Assembly (NCBI GenBank): GCA_013360585.1
Contig: JABWBH010000045.1
Location: 1-35,899, forward strand
Direction of reading: 5' to 3'
Origin: Phycisphaerae bacterium
GTDB lineage: Bacteria > Planctomycetota > Phycisphaerae > UBA1845
DNA length: 35,899 nt
Shown: one piece after another, positions 6,982-18,590 of the stretch
How positions within the stretch are numbered: the first letter of the stretch is position 1
Layout: each line of letters starts with the position of its first letter
The notes under the pieces: model-generated
The model's database searches: none
What the model saw: only the letters and a program-made list of their open reading frames with translations
What the model was told of the DNA's origin: nothing
Position numbers and translations under genes: made by a program

Positions 6982-7281
6982 ATGAAGAAGTTGGTTGGAC
7001 TGCTTGCGGTGTTGGCGTTGAGCGCGGGGTATGCCTTCGCGGATTGCTCGGGCAATGAGGCGATCACCGCGAAATGCCGCAACGGGAAGGTGAAGGTCAA
7101 GCTGACGGGCGGAACGGCCGGGGATACGGCGACGTTTCAGCTTGACGGTGATGAGAGCACGAACATCAGCGTAACCGTGGGTGACGACGGCAAGGCCAAG
7201 GCGAAGTGGAAAGGCGTTGCGGACGGCGCGCACACGGTCAGCTACCTTGAGTGTGGGCAAAGTGCCGACGTCGAGTGCTAA
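6982..7281 (+). CDS. small secreted four-cysteine domain protein
   Basis: A 99-residue protein with a clear signal peptide (MKKLVGLLAVLALSAGYAFA, cleavage after AFA) and a mature domain of about 79 residues. The mature part starts DCSGNEAITAKC, continues with an alternating beta-strand pattern (KVKVKLTGG, ATFQLDGDES, ISVTVGDDGKAKAKW) and ends LECGQSADVEC. Four cysteines at the two ends suggest disulfides in an exported beta-sandwich. The same domain forms the C-terminus of the next gene's product. A strong GGAGGG ribosome site precedes the ATG and a strong terminator follows, so this is a single-gene transcription unit. I do not recognise the family. Function is unknown; a surface or matrix protein is one possibility. 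Confidence 0.85.
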   Translation: MKKLVGLLAVLALSAGYAFADCSGNEAITAKCRNGKVKVKLTGGTAGDTATFQLDGDESTNISVTVGDDGKAKAKWKGVADGAHTVSYLECGQSADVEC

Positions 7282-7320
7282 AGGGGGCCAAGGCGAAGGC
7301 GCGAGTCCCATCCTCCGGAG

Positions 7321-7358
7321 GGGCTGATCCGCTTGCGGATCGGCCCTTTCCGCTTTTT
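7321..7358 (+). terminator. Rho-independent terminator
   Basis: An 11-base stem with one G-U pair (7321-7331 with 7336-7346) closes a four-base loop. It is followed by TTT and, a few bases later, TTTTT. It lies 40 bases after the secreted-domain gene and separates it from the next gene, which carries the same domain. Confidence 0.85.
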
Positions 7359-7421
7359 ACCGGGCGGGCGGCGTGCGAGGGCGGGTACAATCAGGCGAGA
7401 CAGGGGTCAGGAGCGACAAAC

Positions 7422-9023
7422 GTGAGAAGGGGGTCAGACGTCAAGTATTTCTCTCGTCACGCCGCCGGTCCGCGCGGGTGGATCGCCGCCGGGGTCGTGA
7501 TGGTTCTTGTGCGGGTGCCGGCGATCGGGCAGACCGTGCGGACATGGGAGGACGCCGCCGGGGATGTGCAGGTCCGGCGCACGGACGCCGGGGCCGACGG
7601 ACTGGTCGACACGAACCTGCACCCGCCGGCGGATCTTTTGTCCTACCAGGTCGGGGCGTGGGCGCCCTCGGATGCGAGGGCGGACCTCTTTCAAGGGGTG
7701 TGGTGGGATGCGGGGTTGTTCATGCGGCTGGATCTTGTGTTCGCCGGGCTGGTGAACCCGCCGGGCACGATGGGGGAGGACGAGCTTTTCGACCCGTTCC
7801 GGTACGGGGCGTCTCCGGTGTTCGGATACGTTGAGATAGATGTGGACGCGGACATCAATACGGGTGGGGAGTTGGCGTTCCCCGAGCTTCGGTATCAGGG
7901 GAACGCGGGGCGCTGGGGCGGGCTGCCGTCCGGGAAGCGGTTGGCGCGGCGCGTGGCGCTGGATGCGACGGCGTTCGATGGGGAATTGTCGACGCCGCCG
8001 CACGTGGAATGCAGCGGAGAGGAGTTTCATCTGGCGTTCAACGGCCGAGCGTGGGAGGACATTCGGATCAAGCGCGGCAACGCCAACCCGTTTTTTCAGC
8101 GGGGGGAGGGGTGGATTCTGACCGGGCGCGTGTTTCACCGGGCGCACGGATTCGAGGCGTTCAGCTACGCCTGCTGCTGCGAGGGGGGGCAGGGGCGTTA
8201 CCTGCCGCGCGTTCAGGTGCAGTTTGATCATGATGCGTCGACGGACCGGACGACGGTTTCGCTCGTTTACCCGCTGACGAATGAGGGGGCGGCGGCGATG
8301 GCGGGGGATTCGGAGGTCGAACCCTTCGACGGCGACGCGTGCAATCAGAACAGTCTCGGGGAAGCGGTGGATGATCTGATCTTCAGCACGCGCAACGCGC
8401 CTTCGTGGTGGCGAAGCGATCCGGACTTCCCGATCATCGCGGGGTGGGAGTTCAAAACGGTGGAAGAGGCGATGACGCCGGCGGCGTGGGAGGTCACCGC
8501 GCTCACCGCGACCAGCTACCTGGAGCGGAGTTCCGGCGATCCGTGGTATGTCTGGACGGATATTGCGCCGAACCCGCTTCCGCGTGACGTGGACGGAAAC
8601 GGCGTGGTGAACGAAGCGGACAAAGACGCGATCGCGCAATACATCATCAAGCACGATGGCGACCCGGAATATGACGGAGACGGCCGCGTGAACGAGCGCG
8701 TGACGGTCATCGACTTCGGTCCGAACTTCAGCGTGTATGACGTCAATTATGATGGTCGCGTCGAGACATCGGATGCGACGCCGTGCAGCGGGCGCGAGAC
8801 AGTTTCCGGAAGCTGCCGACGGGGCAAACTCAAAGTGAAGGTGACCCGCGGCGTTCCCGGCGCGACGCTGACTTTGCGCCTTGACGGCAACGCCTCGACG
8901 GACTGTCCCACGACGCTCAACAGCCGTGGCCGGGGCAAGGCGAAGTTCAACGATGTTGCGCCGGGCGAGCACCTGGTGGCGCTGCTGGAGTGCGAGAGGC
9001 AGGCGCAGGCGAGGTGTGACTGA
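7422..9023 (+). CDS. large secreted protein with dockerin-like loops and C-terminal four-cysteine domain
   Basis: A 533-residue exported protein. The N-terminus has a basic segment and hydrophobic core (GWIAAGVVMVLVRVPAIGQ). A body of about 350 residues follows, rich in Trp, Asp and Gly, which I do not recognise. Around residues 390-450 are EF-hand-like calcium loops (DVDGNGVVNEAD, DGDGRVNE, DVNYDGRVETSD) of dockerin type I style. The last 80 or so residues (CSGRETVSGSC to LECERQAQARC) match the stand-alone domain of the preceding gene, with all four cysteines plus one extra. GTG at 7422 is chosen because GGAG lies eight bases before it and a signal sequence follows; the open frame upstream runs through the terminator. 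Likely a cell-surface or extracellular protein. Confidence 0.8.
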   Translation: MRRGSDVKYFSRHAAGPRGWIAAGVVMVLVRVPAIGQTVRTWEDAAGDVQVRRTDAGADGLVDTNLHPPADLLSYQVGAWAPSDARADLFQGVWWDAGLFMRLDLVFAGLVNPPGTMGEDELFDPFRYGASPVFGYVEIDVDADINTGGELAFPELRYQGNAGRWGGLPSGKRLARRVALDATAFDGELSTPPHVECSGEEFHLAFNGRAWEDIRIKRGNANPFFQRGEGWILTGRVFHRAHGFEAFSYACCCEGGQGRYLPRVQVQFDHDASTDRTTVSLVYPLTNEGAAAMAGDSEVEPFDGDACNQNSLGEAVDDLIFSTRNAPSWWRSDPDFPIIAGWEFKTVEEAMTPAAWEVTALTATSYLERSSGDPWYVWTDIAPNPLPRDVDGNGVVNEADKDAIAQYIIKHDGDPEYDGDGRVNERVTVIDFGPNFSVYDVNYDGRVETSDATPCSGRETVSGSCRRGKLKVKVTRGVPGATLTLRLDGNASTDCPTTLNSRGRGKAKFNDVAPGEHLVALLECERQAQARCD

Positions 9024-9135: not shown

Positions 9136-11097
9136 ATGAAACCCTCACCGTCGTCCAAGCTTCGTTATCGCGCGTTCCGCCGCGGGTCTTCGTCGCCCGC
9201 CGCATCACGCGGCGTGGAGGCTGCATCGAGCGTCTCGCCCGGCGCGCCGCCTTCCTCTCGCGGGGACAATGATGAAAAGCCCCACGGGCGCGAGCTGAAG
9301 CGTCACCTTCGACAGTACCGGACGTGGCTTTCGCCGCATTTCGGATCGTTGGCGCTGGTGTTCGTGCTGGCGCTGGCGTCGGCGGGGCTGAACATGGTCC
9401 TTCCGATGGTGACGAAGATCCTCATCGATGACATTCTGCTGGCGGAAGGTCTGACTTCGGACGCGCGTCTTTCGCGTCTTGTTCAGGCGGGGCTGGCGAC
9501 TGCGGCGCTGCTGGTGGCGGCGCAGGGTCTGGATGCGTGGCGATCGGTGCGGATGTCGGTGTTGAACTCGAAGGTGATCTTCAAGCTGCGGGAGCGGCTT
9601 TTTGACCGGTTGCTGAGGTTGCCGCTGGCGTCGCTGTCGGAGATGAAGAGCGGGGGGATCGTGTCGCGTCTTTCGGGCGACGTGGACAGCCTGACGGGTC
9701 TGGTTCAGCTTGCGATCATTACGCCGGGCGTGGCGATCATCCGGGTGATCCTGACGATCGGGGTGCTGGTGTTCCTGAGCTGGAAGATGGCGCTGGTGTC
9801 GGTGCTGCTGATTCCTCCGGTGGTGCTGATCAACGTGATGTGGGTGCGGAAGGTGCGTCCGGTGTACCGGTCGATCCGGGATGACCGGGCGGAGGTGGAC
9901 GGGCGGATCACGGAGACGTTCGGGGGGATCCGGGTGGTGCGATCGTTTCAGCGGGAGGCGCACGAGGAGCACGATCACGCGGTCGGGCATCACACGATCA
10001 TTCGGAAGCGTCTTTATGCGAACCTGCTGCAACTGGTGGTGACGAGCGGGTGGGGGCTGCTGATTCCGGCGACGACGCTGCTGATCGTGTGCTTCGGGGG
10101 ATACCTAGTCATCCGGGAGCAGGCGACGGTGGGGGACATCTTCGCGTTCCAGATGTACGCGTTCATGCTGCTGACGCCGGTGTCGCAGATCGTGAATTCG
10201 TGGAACGAGACGCAAAGCGCGCTGGCGGCGATGGAGCGGGTGTTCGAGATTCTCGATCTCGTGCCGGAGAAGCCGGATCCTGCGGATGCGCTGCCTGCGC
10301 CGGGGCGGGTGGAAGAATTCCGGTTTGACCACGTGAGCTTCGCGTACCGTGAGGGACATCCGGTCCTGCACGGGTTCGACCTGACGGTGCGCGGGGGGAT
10401 GACGGTGGCGCTGGTGGGTCCGAGCGGAGCGGGTAAGACGACGGTGACGGACCTGGTGGCGCGGTTTCATGATCCGACGGGCGGGGCGTTGCGGTTGAAC
10501 GGCGTGGACATCCGGCGGATGCGGTTGCGGGAGTACCGCGGACTGGTCGGGGTGGTGCAGCAGGAGGTGTTTCTTTTTGACGGGACGGTGCGCGACAACC
10601 TGACATACGGGCGGCGGGGGGCGACGGACGAGGAGGTGATCGCGGCGGCGCGCCGGGCGAACGCGCATGATTTCATCGCGGCGCTGCCGGAAGGGTATGA
10701 GACGCTGATCGGGGAGCGGGGCGTGAAGCTGTCCGGGGGGCAGCGGCAGCGGGTGAGCATCGCGCGGGCGCTGCTGGCGGATCCGCAGATTCTTGTGCTC
10801 GACGAGGCGACAAGCAACCTCGACACCGAGAGCGAGCAACTCATTCAGGCCTCGTTGAGGGAATTGCTGCGCGGTCGGACGACGTTTGTGATCGCGCACC
10901 GGTTGAGCACGGTGACGCACGCGGACCTGATCGTGGTGATGAATCAGGGGCGCATCGTGGAGACCGGATCGCACGACGTCTTGATGGCGCGAGGCGGGCC
11001 TTATCGGGAGATGGTGGACCGTCAGCGGCGGGTCATGTCGGAGGGGCTGGACGGGGCGGCGTGGAGTTGTGAGGGGCTTAAGAGCGCCGCACAATGA
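9136..11097 (+). CDS. ABC exporter, fused membrane and ATPase domains (MsbA type)
   Basis: A 653-residue half-transporter expected to act as a homodimer in the inner membrane. After a hydrophilic lead of about 55 residues the six-helix exporter domain begins (LALVFVLALASAGLNMVLP). The ATPase domain has Walker A GPSGAGKTT, Q loop GVVQQEVFLFDGTV, signature LSGGQRQR, Walker B ILVLDEATSNLD and the switch His in IAHRLS. The family exports lipids, peptides or drugs; the substrate cannot be told. The start is uncertain: ATG at 9136 lacks a good ribosome site and GTG at 9214 is an alternative. Neither neighbour is an obvious partner. The next gene follows after 61 bases on the same strand. Confidence 0.88.
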   Translation: MKPSPSSKLRYRAFRRGSSSPAASRGVEAASSVSPGAPPSSRGDNDEKPHGRELKRHLRQYRTWLSPHFGSLALVFVLALASAGLNMVLPMVTKILIDDILLAEGLTSDARLSRLVQAGLATAALLVAAQGLDAWRSVRMSVLNSKVIFKLRERLFDRLLRLPLASLSEMKSGGIVSRLSGDVDSLTGLVQLAIITPGVAIIRVILTIGVLVFLSWKMALVSVLLIPPVVLINVMWVRKVRPVYRSIRDDRAEVDGRITETFGGIRVVRSFQREAHEEHDHAVGHHTIIRKRLYANLLQLVVTSGWGLLIPATTLLIVCFGGYLVIREQATVGDIFAFQMYAFMLLTPVSQIVNSWNETQSALAAMERVFEILDLVPEKPDPADALPAPGRVEEFRFDHVSFAYREGHPVLHGFDLTVRGGMTVALVGPSGAGKTTVTDLVARFHDPTGGALRLNGVDIRRMRLREYRGLVGVVQQEVFLFDGTVRDNLTYGRRGATDEEVIAAARRANAHDFIAALPEGYETLIGERGVKLSGGQRQRVSIARALLADPQILVLDEATSNLDTESEQLIQASLRELLRGRTTFVIAHRLSTVTHADLIVVMNQGRIVETGSHDVLMARGGPYREMVDRQRRVMSEGLDGAAWSCEGLKSAAQ

Positions 11098-11158
11098 CGG
11101 GAGTCCGGGACGCACTCGGTCCGGGCATCGCGTCATGCATCCTGACAAGCAGTTCAAG

Positions 11159-14100
11159 ATGAACGATCCGGACGGATCCGCGCGGGCGCGCGGCAGAGCG
11201 GCGGCGCGCGTTGCGGCGGCGGCGTTGATCGTTGTGATTTCGGTCGGAGCGCTTGCCGGAGCAGTCGCGGCGGCGCGCTCAGGCGGACCGGCGGCGCGCT
11301 CAGGCGGACCGGCGGCGCGATCGAGTGAGGGGGCGTCGCGGAGGGCACCGGAGCCGGGGGACGCTCAGTCGCGGCGTGTGCAGTTTCTGGCGCGGGGGAC
11401 ACGGACGTTCGAGGGGCCTGCCGGCGACGGAATGTTGATGCCGTCGGACGTGGCGGTGCTGTCGGACGGGACGGTCGTCGTCGCGGACGGCGTGCATGAT
11501 CGCCTGATGCTCTTCGAGTCCGACGGGGGCTGGCGACGGGAGTTGCGCGGTTTCGGGCACGTGGACTTCAGCCGGCCGCTGGGCATCGCGGCAGGCCGGG
11601 CGGATCGGATCTGGGTGGCGGACACGGGAAGCTCGCGCGTTTTGTCGGGGACCGCGCTGGGCGAGCTGACACGGGCAATTCCGATCGGCGAGAGCGGAGC
11701 GGACATCACCGATGTCGTGTTGACCCTCGACGAGCGGCGTCTTTATGTCGCGGACAATCATCTTCACCGCCTGTTACGGGTAGACCTGGGCGGGGGGACT
11801 GAGACGGTGCTGGGCGGTCCCGGCGTCGGGCGCGGGCAGTTCAACTATCCCTACCTGATCGCGGCGGATCGCGGCGGACGCATTCTGGTTTCCGACGTCA
11901 TCAACGGTCGGATCGGCGTTCGACAGGAGGATGGCGCGGCGCTGCCGGAGATCGGCTCGTTCGGGGTGATGCCGGGGCAGTTGTACCGTCCGAAGGGGGT
12001 GGCGTCCGACGCGGCGGGGCGGACGTGGGTTTCCGACGGGCGGCTGGGCGTGATCTCGGTGTTCACGAGCGACGGAAGGTACATCGACGTCCTGCGCGGG
12101 GAGGACGGTATTCCGCTGCGTCTTGAGGAGCCTTCAGGGCTGGCGTTCGACGGTCAGGGGCAGTTGTACGTTGTGGAGGTTCGCGGCGACCGGGTGCGGT
12201 CGTTCGAGCTTGTTGAGCGTGAGGCGGCGACTGCGGGTGCGGAGACGGCGGCGCCGACGGTAGGGCGTCAACCGCAGGGATGCACGGTGTGCCACCTGGA
12301 GTGGACGACACCGCTGGTGGACGGAAAGGGGACCGAGTTGATCGCGGTTCCGGAGAATCCGTCGTCGCATCCGCTGGTGAGCCGCGAGGAGAATTGTCTT
12401 TCCTGTCATGACGGGTCCGTGGCAGACTCGCGGAGGCGGGTCTGGGTGGAGCACGGTCACGGGACGGGCATCACACCTCCCGCGGGCATGACGGTTCCGG
12501 CGGAACTGCCGCTGGCGGACGGACAGATCGTCTGTCGGACGTGTCACAGCGCGCATACCCGCGGGGGGTCGGGCAACGCGCTGAAAGACGCGGTGTTCCT
12601 ACGGGTGAAGTCGGATGCGGGAGAGCTTTGTCTGGGGTGTCACGCGGACCTGGCGGGGGGCGCGGTCACCGGGATGCATCCGGTCGGGGGGTTCGAGGAT
12701 CCGCTTTCCCACGTGCTGCGGGCCGCGGGCGCGAAGGCGCCGGCGGACGGGGCGGCAGGCGCCTGTCTGACGTGTCACACGCCTCACGGGTCCGCCCAGA
12801 CCGCGCTGATGATCGAGACGGCGACGGCGGAAGCGCTGTGCATTGAGTGTCACGCGGACGTCACTTCGCAACATGCGGTGGAGGGTGTGACGGGCGCGCG
12901 GCATCCGCTTTCGGGCGAACTGGGCGCCGGACAGCGTGAGGCGCTGCTGGGCGCGGACGTTCGGCCGCGCTGGGCGGGCGGGCTGGAGTGCCTGTCGTGT
13001 CATAAGATGCATCACGCGCCGTCGAAGGATCACCTTCTGATTCAGCCGACCGAGGACGGCGCGTTCTGTCTTACGTGTCACCCCTCGCAGCGGGCGGTGA
13101 TCGGCACGGGGCACGATCTGCGGAGTAGTGCACCGGAGGAGACGAACGCGGCGGGGTTGACCGCGGGAGCCTCAGGACCGTGCGCCGCGTGCCACGGGGT
13201 TCACGCTCCCGCAAGGTTGTCCGGTGGGCCTGCGGATCCCGCGAATCCGGCGCAACCGACGCGAGACGCGGACGAGGCGTGTCTGACCTGTCACCGAACC
13301 GGCGGATGTGCGAAGGTTGCGGCAGAATTTCGGCATCCGCGCGCGGTGCCGGGCGATCGACTCGCCGGTCTGCTTTCAGCGCTGTCGCGGCATCCGGCAG
13401 GGGGTGCTGGCGACGGGGGAGAACGTGCCGCCGAGGTTGAGGAGGATCAAGCCGAGGCTGCGCAGATGCGATGTACGCACTGTCACGACCCGCACGATGC
13501 GACGCACGCGGCTTATCTGCGGGCCGAAGCGGACGTGCTTTGCGCGGCGTGTCACGCGGATCAGGCGGGAATGCTGGGGGGACGGCACGACTTCCGGGAC
13601 GATCCGCACCTCGTTGCCGGTCGGGGGCAATCTGCGGAGGTCACCGGCGCCTGCGGGTTCTGTCATGCGGTTCACGGTGGGGCGTCACCGGCGTTGTGGG
13701 CGGCGACGGCGAGCGTTCCGAAGGATGCGGAAGGGTTGTGCCTGGAGTGTCACCGCGCGGGCGGGCTGGGGGCGGCGTCTGTCGCCCCGCATTCCGCGCA
13801 TCCGACCGGCGTTTCGTCGTTGGCGGGCGAGACCGGGAGGTTCTCGTCAGCGATGATAACGTCCGGGCTACCGCTTTTCTGCGAGAGCGGGCTTCGGGAT
13901 CCGGGAGGGGGCGTGACATGCGCAACGTGTCATGACCCTCACGCCGACGCTTCAGTCGGGACCGCGATGCTTCGTACGAATGCGGGCAGCGACGCGACGG
14001 ACTTGTGCCTGCGCTGTCATCCGCACACGCAAGGCCTGTCGTTCAGTGCTCACGGACGTGAGTTGGCGAAGTACGCCCCGGAGACGACCTGCGGACCGTG

Positions 14101-14548
14101 TCATGCGGTTCATCCCTCGGAAGCGATCGCCGGGGAGGGGATGTGGGTCGGACTGAAAGGGGAGGCGGGACACGGGGCGGGGGATCTGGCGGCCGGGGAG
14201 ACCTGCACCGGTTGTCACAAGCCGGGAGGGACCGCCAAGGCCGCGGGTCGAGCGGGGCACCCGAGGTTTCTGATGGCGAATACGGTCGCTGCGGATCACC
14301 CGGCGTACATGCCGCTGAGGGATGCGCAGGGTCAACTCTCATCCCGAGGGGAGATGACCTGCGTGACCTGTCACCTGCCTCACGGTGGGTTGACCGCAGA
14401 GGAGGCGGGTCCGCTGCTGGTCGCTGATCCGTCTGGGCGACTCCTGTCGGGTGCGAAGCCGCTGCTGCGATCGTACGTGGCGCCGAACCTCTGCACCCAG
14501 TGCCACGGTTCGGAAGGACTGAGGCGGTTTCTTGATTTTCACCGGTGA
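11159..14548 (+). CDS. NHL beta-propeller fused to 20-motif multiheme cytochrome c
   Basis: A 1129-residue exported protein. A hydrophobic segment (residues about 17-39, VAAAALIVVISVGALAGAVA) is a signal or anchor. Residues about 75-370 hold NHL-type blades (MPSDVAVLSDGTVVVAD, RPLGIAAG, RPKGVASDAAGRTWVSD, EPSGLAFDGQGQLYVVE). From residue 375 to 1115 I count 20 CXXCH haem c attachment motifs, the first CTVCH and the last CTQCH. Many are arranged as the doubled pattern CXXCHxxH followed by a second CXXCH, and many extra histidines could serve as distal ligands. Assembly requires a cytochrome c maturation system, not present here. The expected role is electron transfer outside the inner membrane, possibly extracellular; this is inference. 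ATG at 11159 is preferred; in-frame ATG at 11135 is possible. Confidence 0.9.
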   Translation: MNDPDGSARARGRAAARVAAAALIVVISVGALAGAVAAARSGGPAARSGGPAARSSEGASRRAPEPGDAQSRRVQFLARGTRTFEGPAGDGMLMPSDVAVLSDGTVVVADGVHDRLMLFESDGGWRRELRGFGHVDFSRPLGIAAGRADRIWVADTGSSRVLSGTALGELTRAIPIGESGADITDVVLTLDERRLYVADNHLHRLLRVDLGGGTETVLGGPGVGRGQFNYPYLIAADRGGRILVSDVINGRIGVRQEDGAALPEIGSFGVMPGQLYRPKGVASDAAGRTWVSDGRLGVISVFTSDGRYIDVLRGEDGIPLRLEEPSGLAFDGQGQLYVVEVRGDRVRSFELVEREAATAGAETAAPTVGRQPQGCTVCHLEWTTPLVDGKGTELIAVPENPSSHPLVSREENCLSCHDGSVADSRRRVWVEHGHGTGITPPAGMTVPAELPLADGQIVCRTCHSAHTRGGSGNALKDAVFLRVKSDAGELCLGCHADLAGGAVTGMHPVGGFEDPLSHVLRAAGAKAPADGAAGACLTCHTPHGSAQTALMIETATAEALCIECHADVTSQHAVEGVTGARHPLSGELGAGQREALLGADVRPRWAGGLECLSCHKMHHAPSKDHLLIQPTEDGAFCLTCHPSQRAVIGTGHDLRSSAPEETNAAGLTAGASGPCAACHGVHAPARLSGGPADPANPAQPTRDADEACLTCHRTGGCAKVAAEFRHPRAVPGDRLAGLLSALSRHPAGGAGDGGERAAEVEEDQAEAAQMRCTHCHDPHDATHAAYLRAEADVLCAACHADQAGMLGGRHDFRDDPHLVAGRGQSAEVTGACGFCHAVHGGASPALWAATASVPKDAEGLCLECHRAGGLGAASVAPHSAHPTGVSSLAGETGRFSSAMITSGLPLFCESGLRDPGGGVTCATCHDPHADASVGTAMLRTNAGSDATDLCLRCHPHTQGLSFSAHGRELAKYAPETTCGPCHAVHPSEAIAGEGMWVGLKGEAGHGAGDLAAGETCTGCHKPGGTAKAAGRAGHPRFLMANTVAADHPAYMPLRDAQGQLSSRGEMTCVTCHLPHGGLTAEEAGPLLVADPSGRLLSGAKPLLRSYVAPNLCTQCHGSEGLRRFLDFHR
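11270..11311 (+). repeat. two perfect 21-bp direct repeats in the cytochrome gene
   Basis: Two identical adjacent 21-base units (11270-11290 and 11291-11311) and the first eight bases of a third encode repeats of the seven residues ARSGGPA just after the signal or anchor segment. The length keeps frame, so copy number could vary without breaking the protein. It forms a flexible linker before the propeller. Confidence 0.85.
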
Positions 14549-14698: not shown

Positions 14699-16492
<1,794 letters not shown>

Positions 16493-16496
16493 GCCT

Positions 16497-16524
16497 TGCG
16501 AATGACGAATTACGAATGACGATG
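16497..16524. repeat. four period-7 units after groEL1
   Basis: Four adjacent heptamers, the second GACGAAT (16504-16510) and the others one to three changes from it, start five bases after the groEL1 stop, in the 121-base gap before groES. Related period-7 stretches occur at 16954-16974, 18677-18704, 18751-18778 and 35818-35899. Confidence 0.65.
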
Positions 16525-16613
16525 GCGGCGCGGTGATGGGGTAACCGGCGCGCCTTATCTGGAAACAAAAAACCGAGAATCCGGGTGCATCCAACAGGAG
16601 GTTCTGAAGAGAC

Positions 16614-16949
16614 ATGGCGACAGCAACAGCGACGGCGACGAAGGGGAAGAGCAAGACGAGCGTGAAGTTCCGGCCGCTGGATGATCGGCTTCTGATCGAG
16701 CCTCACGAGGCCGAGGAGACGACGGCGGGCGGGATTGTGCTTCCGGATACGGCGCGGGAGAAGCCGCAGCGCGGGACGGTGGTGGCGGCGGGTCCGGGAA
16801 AGCTGCTGGACAGCGGCGATCGCGGCGAGATGACGGTCCGGGTGGGGATGAGCGTGCTTTACGGCAAGTACAGCGGGACGGAGATCACGATCGGCGGCGA
16901 GGACTACGTGGTTCTGCGGGAGTCCGACGTGTTGGGGATCGTCGAGTAG
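16614..16949 (+). CDS. groES: co-chaperonin GroES
   Basis: A 111-residue GroES that caps the GroEL ring. The core begins VKFRPLDDRLLIEP, carries the mobile GroEL-binding loop (EETTAGGIVLPDTAREKP) and ends YVVLRESDVLGIVE. A Thr/Ala/Lys-rich lead of 15 residues (MATATATATKGKSKT) precedes the usual start, longer than in most GroES. An AGGAGG site lies 12 bases before the ATG, which is far, with GAAGAG nearer; a start within the lead is less likely because no other start codon is present. It lies between the two groEL copies. Confidence 0.96.
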   Translation: MATATATATKGKSKTSVKFRPLDDRLLIEPHEAEETTAGGIVLPDTAREKPQRGTVVAAGPGKLLDSGDRGEMTVRVGMSVLYGKYSGTEITIGGEDYVVLRESDVLGIVE

Positions 16950-16953
16950 GCGT

Positions 16954-16974
16954 CAGGCAACAGGCGACAGGAAG
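16954..16974. repeat. three period-7 units supplying the groEL2 ribosome site
   Basis: CAGGCAA, CAGGCGA and CAGGAAG follow each other directly, starting five bases after the groES stop. The last unit contains AGGA seven bases before the groEL2 ATG, so the repeat itself appears to provide the Shine-Dalgarno sequence. Confidence 0.65.
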
Positions 16975-16979
16975 ACGGT

Positions 16980-18590
16980 ATGCCAAAACAAATGATGTTT
17001 TCTCAGGACGCCCGGCAGCAGATTCTGGAGGGCGTTTCGAAGCTGGCGGCGGCGGTGAAGATCACGATGGGTCCGACGGGGCGCAACGTGCTGCTTCAGA
17101 AGTCTTACGGATCGCCGCGGGTGACGAAGGACGGCGTGACCGTGGCGAAGGAGGTTGAGCTTCCGGACAACTTCCAGAACATGGGCGCGAAGATGATCAA
17201 CCAGGTCGCGTCGAAGACGAGCGACGTGGTGGGCGACGGAACGACGACGGCGACGGTGCTGGCGGAGGCGATCTACCGGGAGGGTCTCAAGCACGTGACG
17301 GCCGGGGCGAACCCGATGGCGCTGAAGCGCGGGATCGACCTGGCGGTGGCGGCGGCGGTGGAGTCGATCGCGAAGCAGTCGGTGAAGGTCAAGGGGAATG
17401 ACGACCTCGCGAAGGTGGCGACGATCTCCGCCAACGGGGACGAGGGCATCGGCAAGCTCCTCGCGGAGGCGCTGGCGAAGGTCGGGAACGACGGCGTGGT
17501 GGAGATCGAGGAGGGCAAGAGCCTCGAGAATGAGCTGGAAGTGGTGGAGGGGATGCAGTTCGACAAGGGCTACATCTCGCCTTACTTCATGACGGATCCG
17601 GGTTCGCTGGAGTGCGTGCTCGAGGATCCGTATATCCTCATCTACGAGAAGAAGATTTCGAGTCTGCGTGAGTTCGTGCCGTTGCTGGAGGGCGTTCTGT
17701 CCGGGGGGCGTCCGCTGCTGATCATCGCGGAGGACGTGGACGGCGAGGCGCTGGCGACGCTGGTGGTGAACAAGCTGCGCGGGATTCTGAAGGCCTGTGC
17801 GGTGAAGGCGCCGGGTTTCGGCGACCGGCGCAAGGCGATGCTGGGGGACATTGCGGCGCTGACCGGCGGTCAGCTCATCAGCGAGGATCTCGGCGTCAAG
17901 CTGGAGAACATCACCTTGTCGCAGATGGGCTCGGCGAAGCGCGTCGTGATCGACAAGGACAACACGACGATCATCCAGGGCGCCGGGAAAAAGAGCGACA
18001 TCAAGGCCCGGACGGAGCAGATCCGCAAGCAGATCGAGGCGACGACGAGCGACTACGACCGCGAGAAGCTTCAGGAGCGGCTGGCGAAGCTGACGGGCGG
18101 CGTGGCGGTGATCCGTGCCGGCGGGGCGACGGAGATCGAGGTCAAGGAGCGGAAGGATCTGCTGGACGACGCGTTTCACGCGACGAAGGCGGCGTCGGAG
18201 GAGGGCATTGTTCCGGGCGGCGGCGTGGCGTTTCTGCGGGCGATCGCGGCGGTGGACGCGGTGCGCGGCAAGGCCCGCGGCGATGAAAAGACCGGCGTGG
18301 ACATCATCGCGCACGCGCTGCGCATTCCGACGCGGACGATCGTCGAGAACTGCGGCGAGGACGGCGAGGTGATCATCGAGCAGGTTCTGGAGAAGCCGGG
18401 GTCTTTCGGATACGACGCGCGGAAGGGCGAATTCACCGACCTGCTGAAGGCGGGGGTGGTGGATCCGGCGAAGGTGTCGCGCGTGGCGCTGGAAAACGCG
18501 GCGAGCGTGGCGGGGCTTCTGCTGACGACGGAAGTCATGCTGACCGAGCTGAAGGAGGACGCCAAGCCGGCGGCGCACGCGATCCGGTAA
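16980..18590 (+). CDS. groEL2: chaperonin GroEL, second copy
   Basis: A 536-residue chaperonin subunit with [63 protein letters not shown] and [13 protein letters not shown]. It differs from the first copy across the whole length and ends without the Gly-Gly-Met tail or the His/Asp tail (last residues KPAAHAIR). It lies 30 bases after groES, with a ribosome site in a period-7 repeat. Two divergent groEL genes around a single groES suggests an old duplication and division of work; whether they form mixed rings is unknown. Confidence 0.97.

Follow-up and report, generated by a model that had tools for sequence, protein, structure and literature searches.

A propeller-fused 20-haem cytochrome of planctomycetes, a candidate periplasmic wire associated with a CbcL-like quinone module

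The gene, its neighbours and the propeller

The window, i.e. the whole analysed stretch of 35,899 nucleotides from a Phycisphaerae bacterium, is a complete contig (C1), and the neighbourhood of the 20-haem gene is therefore cut by the assembly ends. The gene, its parts and its neighbours are as follows.

9349..11097, + strand: ABC transporter, MsbA-like sequence (approximate start), named by eye
11159..14548, + strand: NHL-propeller/20-haem c-type cytochrome gene, 1129 aa; alternative in-frame ATG at 11135
11159..11338, + strand: predicted signal/anchor and low-complexity linker, residues 1-60; by eye a basic n-region, a hydrophobic stretch and an Ala-rich end
11378..12229, + strand: six-bladed NHL beta-propeller, about residues 74-357 (Pfam, AlphaFold2, fold comparison)
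12281..12409, + strand: haems 1-2, divergent first pair, CXXCH at residues 375 and 413; putative distal His H432 and H434
12533..13336, + strand: haems 3-10, residues 459-726, four CXXCHxxH/CXXCH-x(n)-H pairs (motifs, alignment)
13472..14260, + strand: haems 11-18, residues 772-1034, four pairs homologous to haems 3-10 (hhalign)
14360..14545, + strand: haems 19-20, last pair, residues 1068-1129; putative distal His 1128, the second-last residue
14849..20575, + strand: GroEL, GroES, second GroEL, DnaJ and GrpE, named by eye

The translated frame of 1129 codons had zero internal stops; the ATG lying 24 bases upstream of 11159 may be the true start. Exactly 20 CXXCH motifs were counted in the protein, spanning residues 375-1112. 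In 2000 shuffled copies the mean number of motifs was 0.08 and the maximum was 2, which rules out a chance origin. Substitutions relative to the two closest orthologs were concentrated at the third codon position (39/47/136 and 111/107/290 at positions 1/2/3), which indicates that the frame is real and selected as a protein. The preliminary description had read a signal or anchor, NHL blades and then 20 CXXCH motifs in one frame, and this architecture was confirmed. The domain search it had proposed resulted in matches above the Pfam gathering scores with NHL and with paired and class III-like cytochrome families (Paired_CXXCH_1, Cytochrome_C7 and Cytochrom_c3_2).

In the window's genome and in the two nearest species, G001 and G003, the 20-haem gene sits between the ABC transporter and the chaperonin genes, with the transporter gene ending 61 bp before 11159 and at the same place in the other two genomes. 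These neighbours are not thought to have a functional link to the 20-haem gene. None of the other called genes of the window, up to the contig ends, contained a CXXCH motif. Downstream of the cytochrome gene, at 14849-18590, GroES is placed between the two GroEL genes, and at 6982-9023 two exported-looking proteins without a Pfam match are conserved in the two nearest species.

The N-terminal signal, as read by eye, predicts export of the protein across the inner membrane; no lipobox was seen by eye in the N-terminus. The propeller scored 71 bits with the NHL model PF01436 (cut-off 20). Its AlphaFold2 prediction consisted of 24 strands, corresponding to six blades, with pLDDT values mostly above 90, and the predicted structure was matched to the NHL domains of TRIM2/TRIM3 at a Z of about 37. 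The mean pLDDT of the model covering residues 61-1129 was 75.1, with values of mostly 45-90 in the haem half.

The haem chain and its known relatives

The doubled CXXCHxxH layout, noticed already in the preliminary description, was found in nine of the ten haem pairs, and the paired-CXXCH model PF09699 scored 156 bits over six stretches. Haems 3-10 are homologous to haems 11-18 by profile alignment (hhalign probability 99.8, E 1e-28), in line with a block duplication. Every haem motif is an ordinary CXXCH, and all 20 were invariant in the 21 full-length orthologs, whose identities were 36-92%.

The putative distal ligands were determined from an alignment of 23 family rows, comprising the 21 full-length proteins and two short members with 12 motifs, in which some of haems 11-20 are absent. 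Outside the CXXCH motifs, 20 conserved histidines were found, each kept in 19-23 of the 23 rows. The ten histidines at residues 432-726 were kept in every row, and the ten at residues 779-1128 in 19 to 22 rows. Many of the gaps in the latter group are traceable to the two short members; His 810 (20 rows) and His 881 (19 rows) were also absent in one or two rows besides these. Starting at haem 3, the conserved histidines lie 3 residues past the motif His in odd haems and 11-17 residues past it in even haems. Haem 1 has no conserved His after its motif, and haem 2 has two. The counts and the spacing suggest that there is one distal His per haem and that every haem is bis-His.

Among proteins of solved structure, MtrA (6r2q chain A) was closest to the cytochrome part, with profile E values of 2e-21 and 9e-16. 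The paired CXXCH layout is common to the 20-haem protein and the MtrA/DmsE decahaem family (MtrABC, 6r2q), and the DmsE family model was matched with five stretches. However, the TIGR03508 (DmsE) score of 99.2 bits was below the cut-off of 192.2, and the protein has 20 haems, not ten. Compared with MtrA, it has twice the haems, a fused propeller and no adjacent porin gene in the window. The haem density of the cytochrome part was 38 aa per haem; MtrA-type wires have about 33 aa per haem, and MtrA extends about 100 angstroms with ten haems (PMC5566968). Modelled alone by AlphaFold2 without haems, the cytochrome part had a mean pLDDT of 68.7, and a Foldseek search of this model against the PDB resulted in no match at E up to 10. 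A second fold comparison, with only six chains, gave MtrA (6r2q_A) a Z of 5.2 and an rmsd of 5.0 over 210 aligned residues, which may be chance.

By description, the protein also resembles the PCC3 periplasmic cytochromes, which carry twenty-odd haems per chain and have a membrane partner predicted to bind b haems (PMC5566968, PMC10734462); it has been proposed that PCC3 proteins, with 21-27 haems, reach across the periplasm (PMC10734462). In contrast, no propeller is mentioned for PCC3, whose membrane protein is of the five-helix HX13H type and whose genes cluster with a porin and an extracellular cytochrome. No cluster of this type (porin, extracellular multihaem cytochrome, HX13H protein) was found in the window, and the relatives use a CbcL-like module instead. 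The OetABI conduit of syntrophic sulfate reducers, likened here by description as well, combines a multihaem conduit with nanowire cytochromes, and the main text of that report does not contain the words NHL or propeller (PMC10553843). Giant periplasmic cytochromes such as PCC3 and the Uet clusters, both compared by description, are already known, whereas no description of a fused, module-linked propeller-cytochrome family was found in the open-licence literature.

Association with the quinone module and distribution of the family

Co-occurrence was studied in a set of 60 related genomes that contains the window's own, with presence and absence read off by hand. The full-length 20-haem gene was present in 21 of them and adjoined a CbcL-like module in 13 of these 21. 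The CbcL-like protein combines a multihaem c part, with 6 CXXCH plus CX3CH and CX4CH sites by eye, and a cytochrome b561 (Pfam Ni_hydr_CYTB). The second module gene encodes a c-type protein of smaller size, which has a hydrophobic stretch at its N-terminus and is apparently membrane-anchored. The strong CbcL-like form was detected in each of the 21 genomes that carry the full-length gene and was absent from the 39 others; G019 and G029 have a short or variant cytochrome without a strong CbcL-like protein. A Fisher's test of these manually compiled sets returned 3e-14, a value that overstates the link because the genomes are kin. The second sample was taken from a class-wide survey in which 35 of 298 genomes carry the ortholog, and it is phylogenetically structured. 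Here the CbcL-like protein was found in 14 of 15 further genomes with the cytochrome and in none of 20 without it; in G294 the cytochrome is present without a strong CbcL-like match. Over both samples, the module occurred in 0 of 57 genomes lacking the 20-haem gene. The likeness to CbcL/MtrH/MtoC (multihaem c with cytochrome b561; PMC6295460) belongs to this presumed partner in the relatives and not to the 20-haem protein itself.

In G002, of the same genus, the 20-haem gene still stands beside the b561 module, and its isolation is a local rearrangement confined to three species of the genus. The earlier observation that no other cytochrome is adjacent is correct for the window, up to the contig ends, and does not extend to the relatives. 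The earlier suggestion that the protein may work alone is rejected by the adjacency and the co-occurrence. In the window's genome the parts are scattered over several contigs, a point that counts against a joint function.

The b561 (CbcL-like) module of the window's genome was located on contig C18, a c-type haem-attachment family on C73, and a set of NHL, 11-haem, 4-haem, NHL, 8-haem and cyclophilin genes on C83. A porin-like gene on C21 is a porin candidate; its profile gave no match against the PDB. By description, the C83 set and the C21 gene together are like the Uet cluster reported for Candidatus Tenderia and Gallionella (PMC10734462). That report does not name the 20-haem propeller protein as a Uet part; the C83 set contains an 8-CXXCH protein, and the three trihaem genes of Uet were not seen in it. 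The OmcE-like tetrahaem cytochrome of the same genome (L036 10908-11681) matched 7tfs with an E of 3.7e-5 and 9yuq with 1.5e-8; the G002 copy matched 7tfs at 8e-17, in agreement with similarity to the OmcE nanowire subunit. In eight relatives an 11-haem NapC-like protein is encoded next to the 20-haem gene; no complete copy of it was found in the window's genome, where the only match was partial, to a shorter NapC-like protein. On contig C24 of this genome, L160 4157-5776 encodes a NapC-like protein that has seven CXXCH motifs and a hydrophobic stretch near its N-terminus and may be a second quinol dehydrogenase.

In 3 of the 21 genomes (G037, G040, G055), the propeller and the cytochrome are encoded by two adjacent genes. 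A scan of named genomes detected relatives in many phyla. In these, a gene with 16-34 CXXCH usually follows directly on an NHL gene, often at a distance of 0-34 bp and with cytochrome-b relatives upstream. The query used to rank these loci included the propeller, so that the frequency of NHL neighbours among them is biased upward. A sequencing error is an unlikely source of the split, which recurs in many unrelated loci, the second gene having a signal-like start in several. The architecture sought in the preliminary description is shared by related planctomycetes, with the module as a neighbour in 13 of the 21 genomes, and is not unique to them: relatives occur across many phyla, mostly in the two-gene form. 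In a tree of 51 cytochrome parts, two changes between the fused and split forms were forced by strongly supported branches, and none of 500 shuffles was as low. Subject to the placement of the root and to losses, the fusion probably arose twice. Independent fusions with 12-16 CXXCH were also observed outside the planctomycete clade (L096, L098, L101, L104), in Acidobacteriota and Gammaproteobacteria records.

Proposed function and alternatives

The 20-haem protein is probably a periplasmic haem wire that is docked by its propeller and links the quinone pool to a conduit in the outer membrane, a proposal in which we infer the location, the haem spacing, the partner contacts, the electron direction and the role of the propeller. 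The protein would be exported to the periplasm, where its 20 putative bis-His haems would make up one unbroken chain for electron transfer between the quinone pool of the inner membrane and the outer-membrane conduit. The inner partner would be the CbcL/MtrH/MtoC-type protein together with the smaller c-type subunit, which appears to be membrane-anchored; relatives of CbcL/MtoC are believed to operate in both directions (PMC6295460). Candidate outer partners are the members of the Uet-like set, i.e. the undecahaem cytochrome, the OmcE-like tetrahaem protein, further NHL proteins and the porin-like protein. The N-terminal propeller may serve for docking or spacing, most likely by holding the wire in position on a partner. 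If the spacing is MtrA-like, twenty haems would reach roughly 200 angstroms by extrapolation. The earlier proposal of a propeller followed by a long electron conduit, with a role in respiration beyond the inner membrane, is well supported as a putative function.

Alternatively, the protein could be an outer-surface or secreted terminal cytochrome, whose propeller would bind a mineral, a polysaccharide or another cell, with electron exchange between the haems and the bound target. Multihaem/NHL clusters have been discussed for extracellular electron transfer and mineral binding has been suggested for NHL proteins (PMC12016550), as has complex assembly (PMC10376724), and the window's genome has Uet-like surface parts. 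However, the OmcE-related tetrahaem gene is far wider, occurring in 52 of the 60 related genomes, which indicates that the distribution of the 20-haem gene follows the quinone module of the inner membrane and not the surface cytochrome. The periplasm is favoured for this reason. Among the separately encoded NHL proteins of the clusters, several resemble lipoproteins, whereas the 20-haem protein has no such feature by eye, and a surface location is regarded as unlikely.

A periplasmic electron store or hub, buffering several carriers without one directed wire, is considered quite improbable. Twenty haems would provide a large capacity, a capacitor role has been raised for the giant PCC3 cytochromes (PMC10734462), and the NapC-like protein with seven CXXCH is encoded in the same genome. 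The strict haem number and order and the duplicated block fit a structural wire better, although the motif number of the wider family varies from 12 to 34. An enzyme, with reduction or oxidation of a small molecule at one or several haems and with substrate access shaped by the propeller, is highly improbable: some propellers are enzymes and weak profile scores to nitrite reductase, hydroxylamine oxidoreductase and MccA were obtained, but with twenty conserved non-motif His for twenty ordinary CXXCH haems none seems left open for catalysis, and the putative bis-His ligation of every haem argues for a conductor.

Beyond the periplasmic wire proposed for the planctomycete protein, it is conceivable, though somewhat short of probable, that an NHL propeller, a paired-CXXCH cytochrome of 12-34 haems and their own CbcL-like module make up a widespread, undescribed conduit from the inner to the outer membrane, present in many phyla and fused at least twice. 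The way in which electrons get across the periplasm during extracellular electron transfer is still debated, and both small diffusing carriers and long wires have been proposed. A family in which the haem number, the ligands and the quinone partner are conserved together is a definite candidate wire for testing, and it supplies such a candidate for planctomycetes, in which extracellular-type respiration is little studied. The combination of a propeller and a paired-CXXCH chain beside CbcL-like genes gives a sequence signature for finding the family in other phyla.

Further multihaem proteins were observed in the relatives. OmcE-related tetrahaem cytochromes are widespread among planctomycete relatives, suggesting predicted cytochrome nanowires. 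In G002, contig C24 (L047 12541-16517) contains a second NHL cytochrome with 12 haems, followed by a 13-CXXCH gene, inside an 11-haem/OmcE-like/porin-like cluster. A similar 12-haem NHL cytochrome is located near a contig end in G019 (L071 17085-19286).
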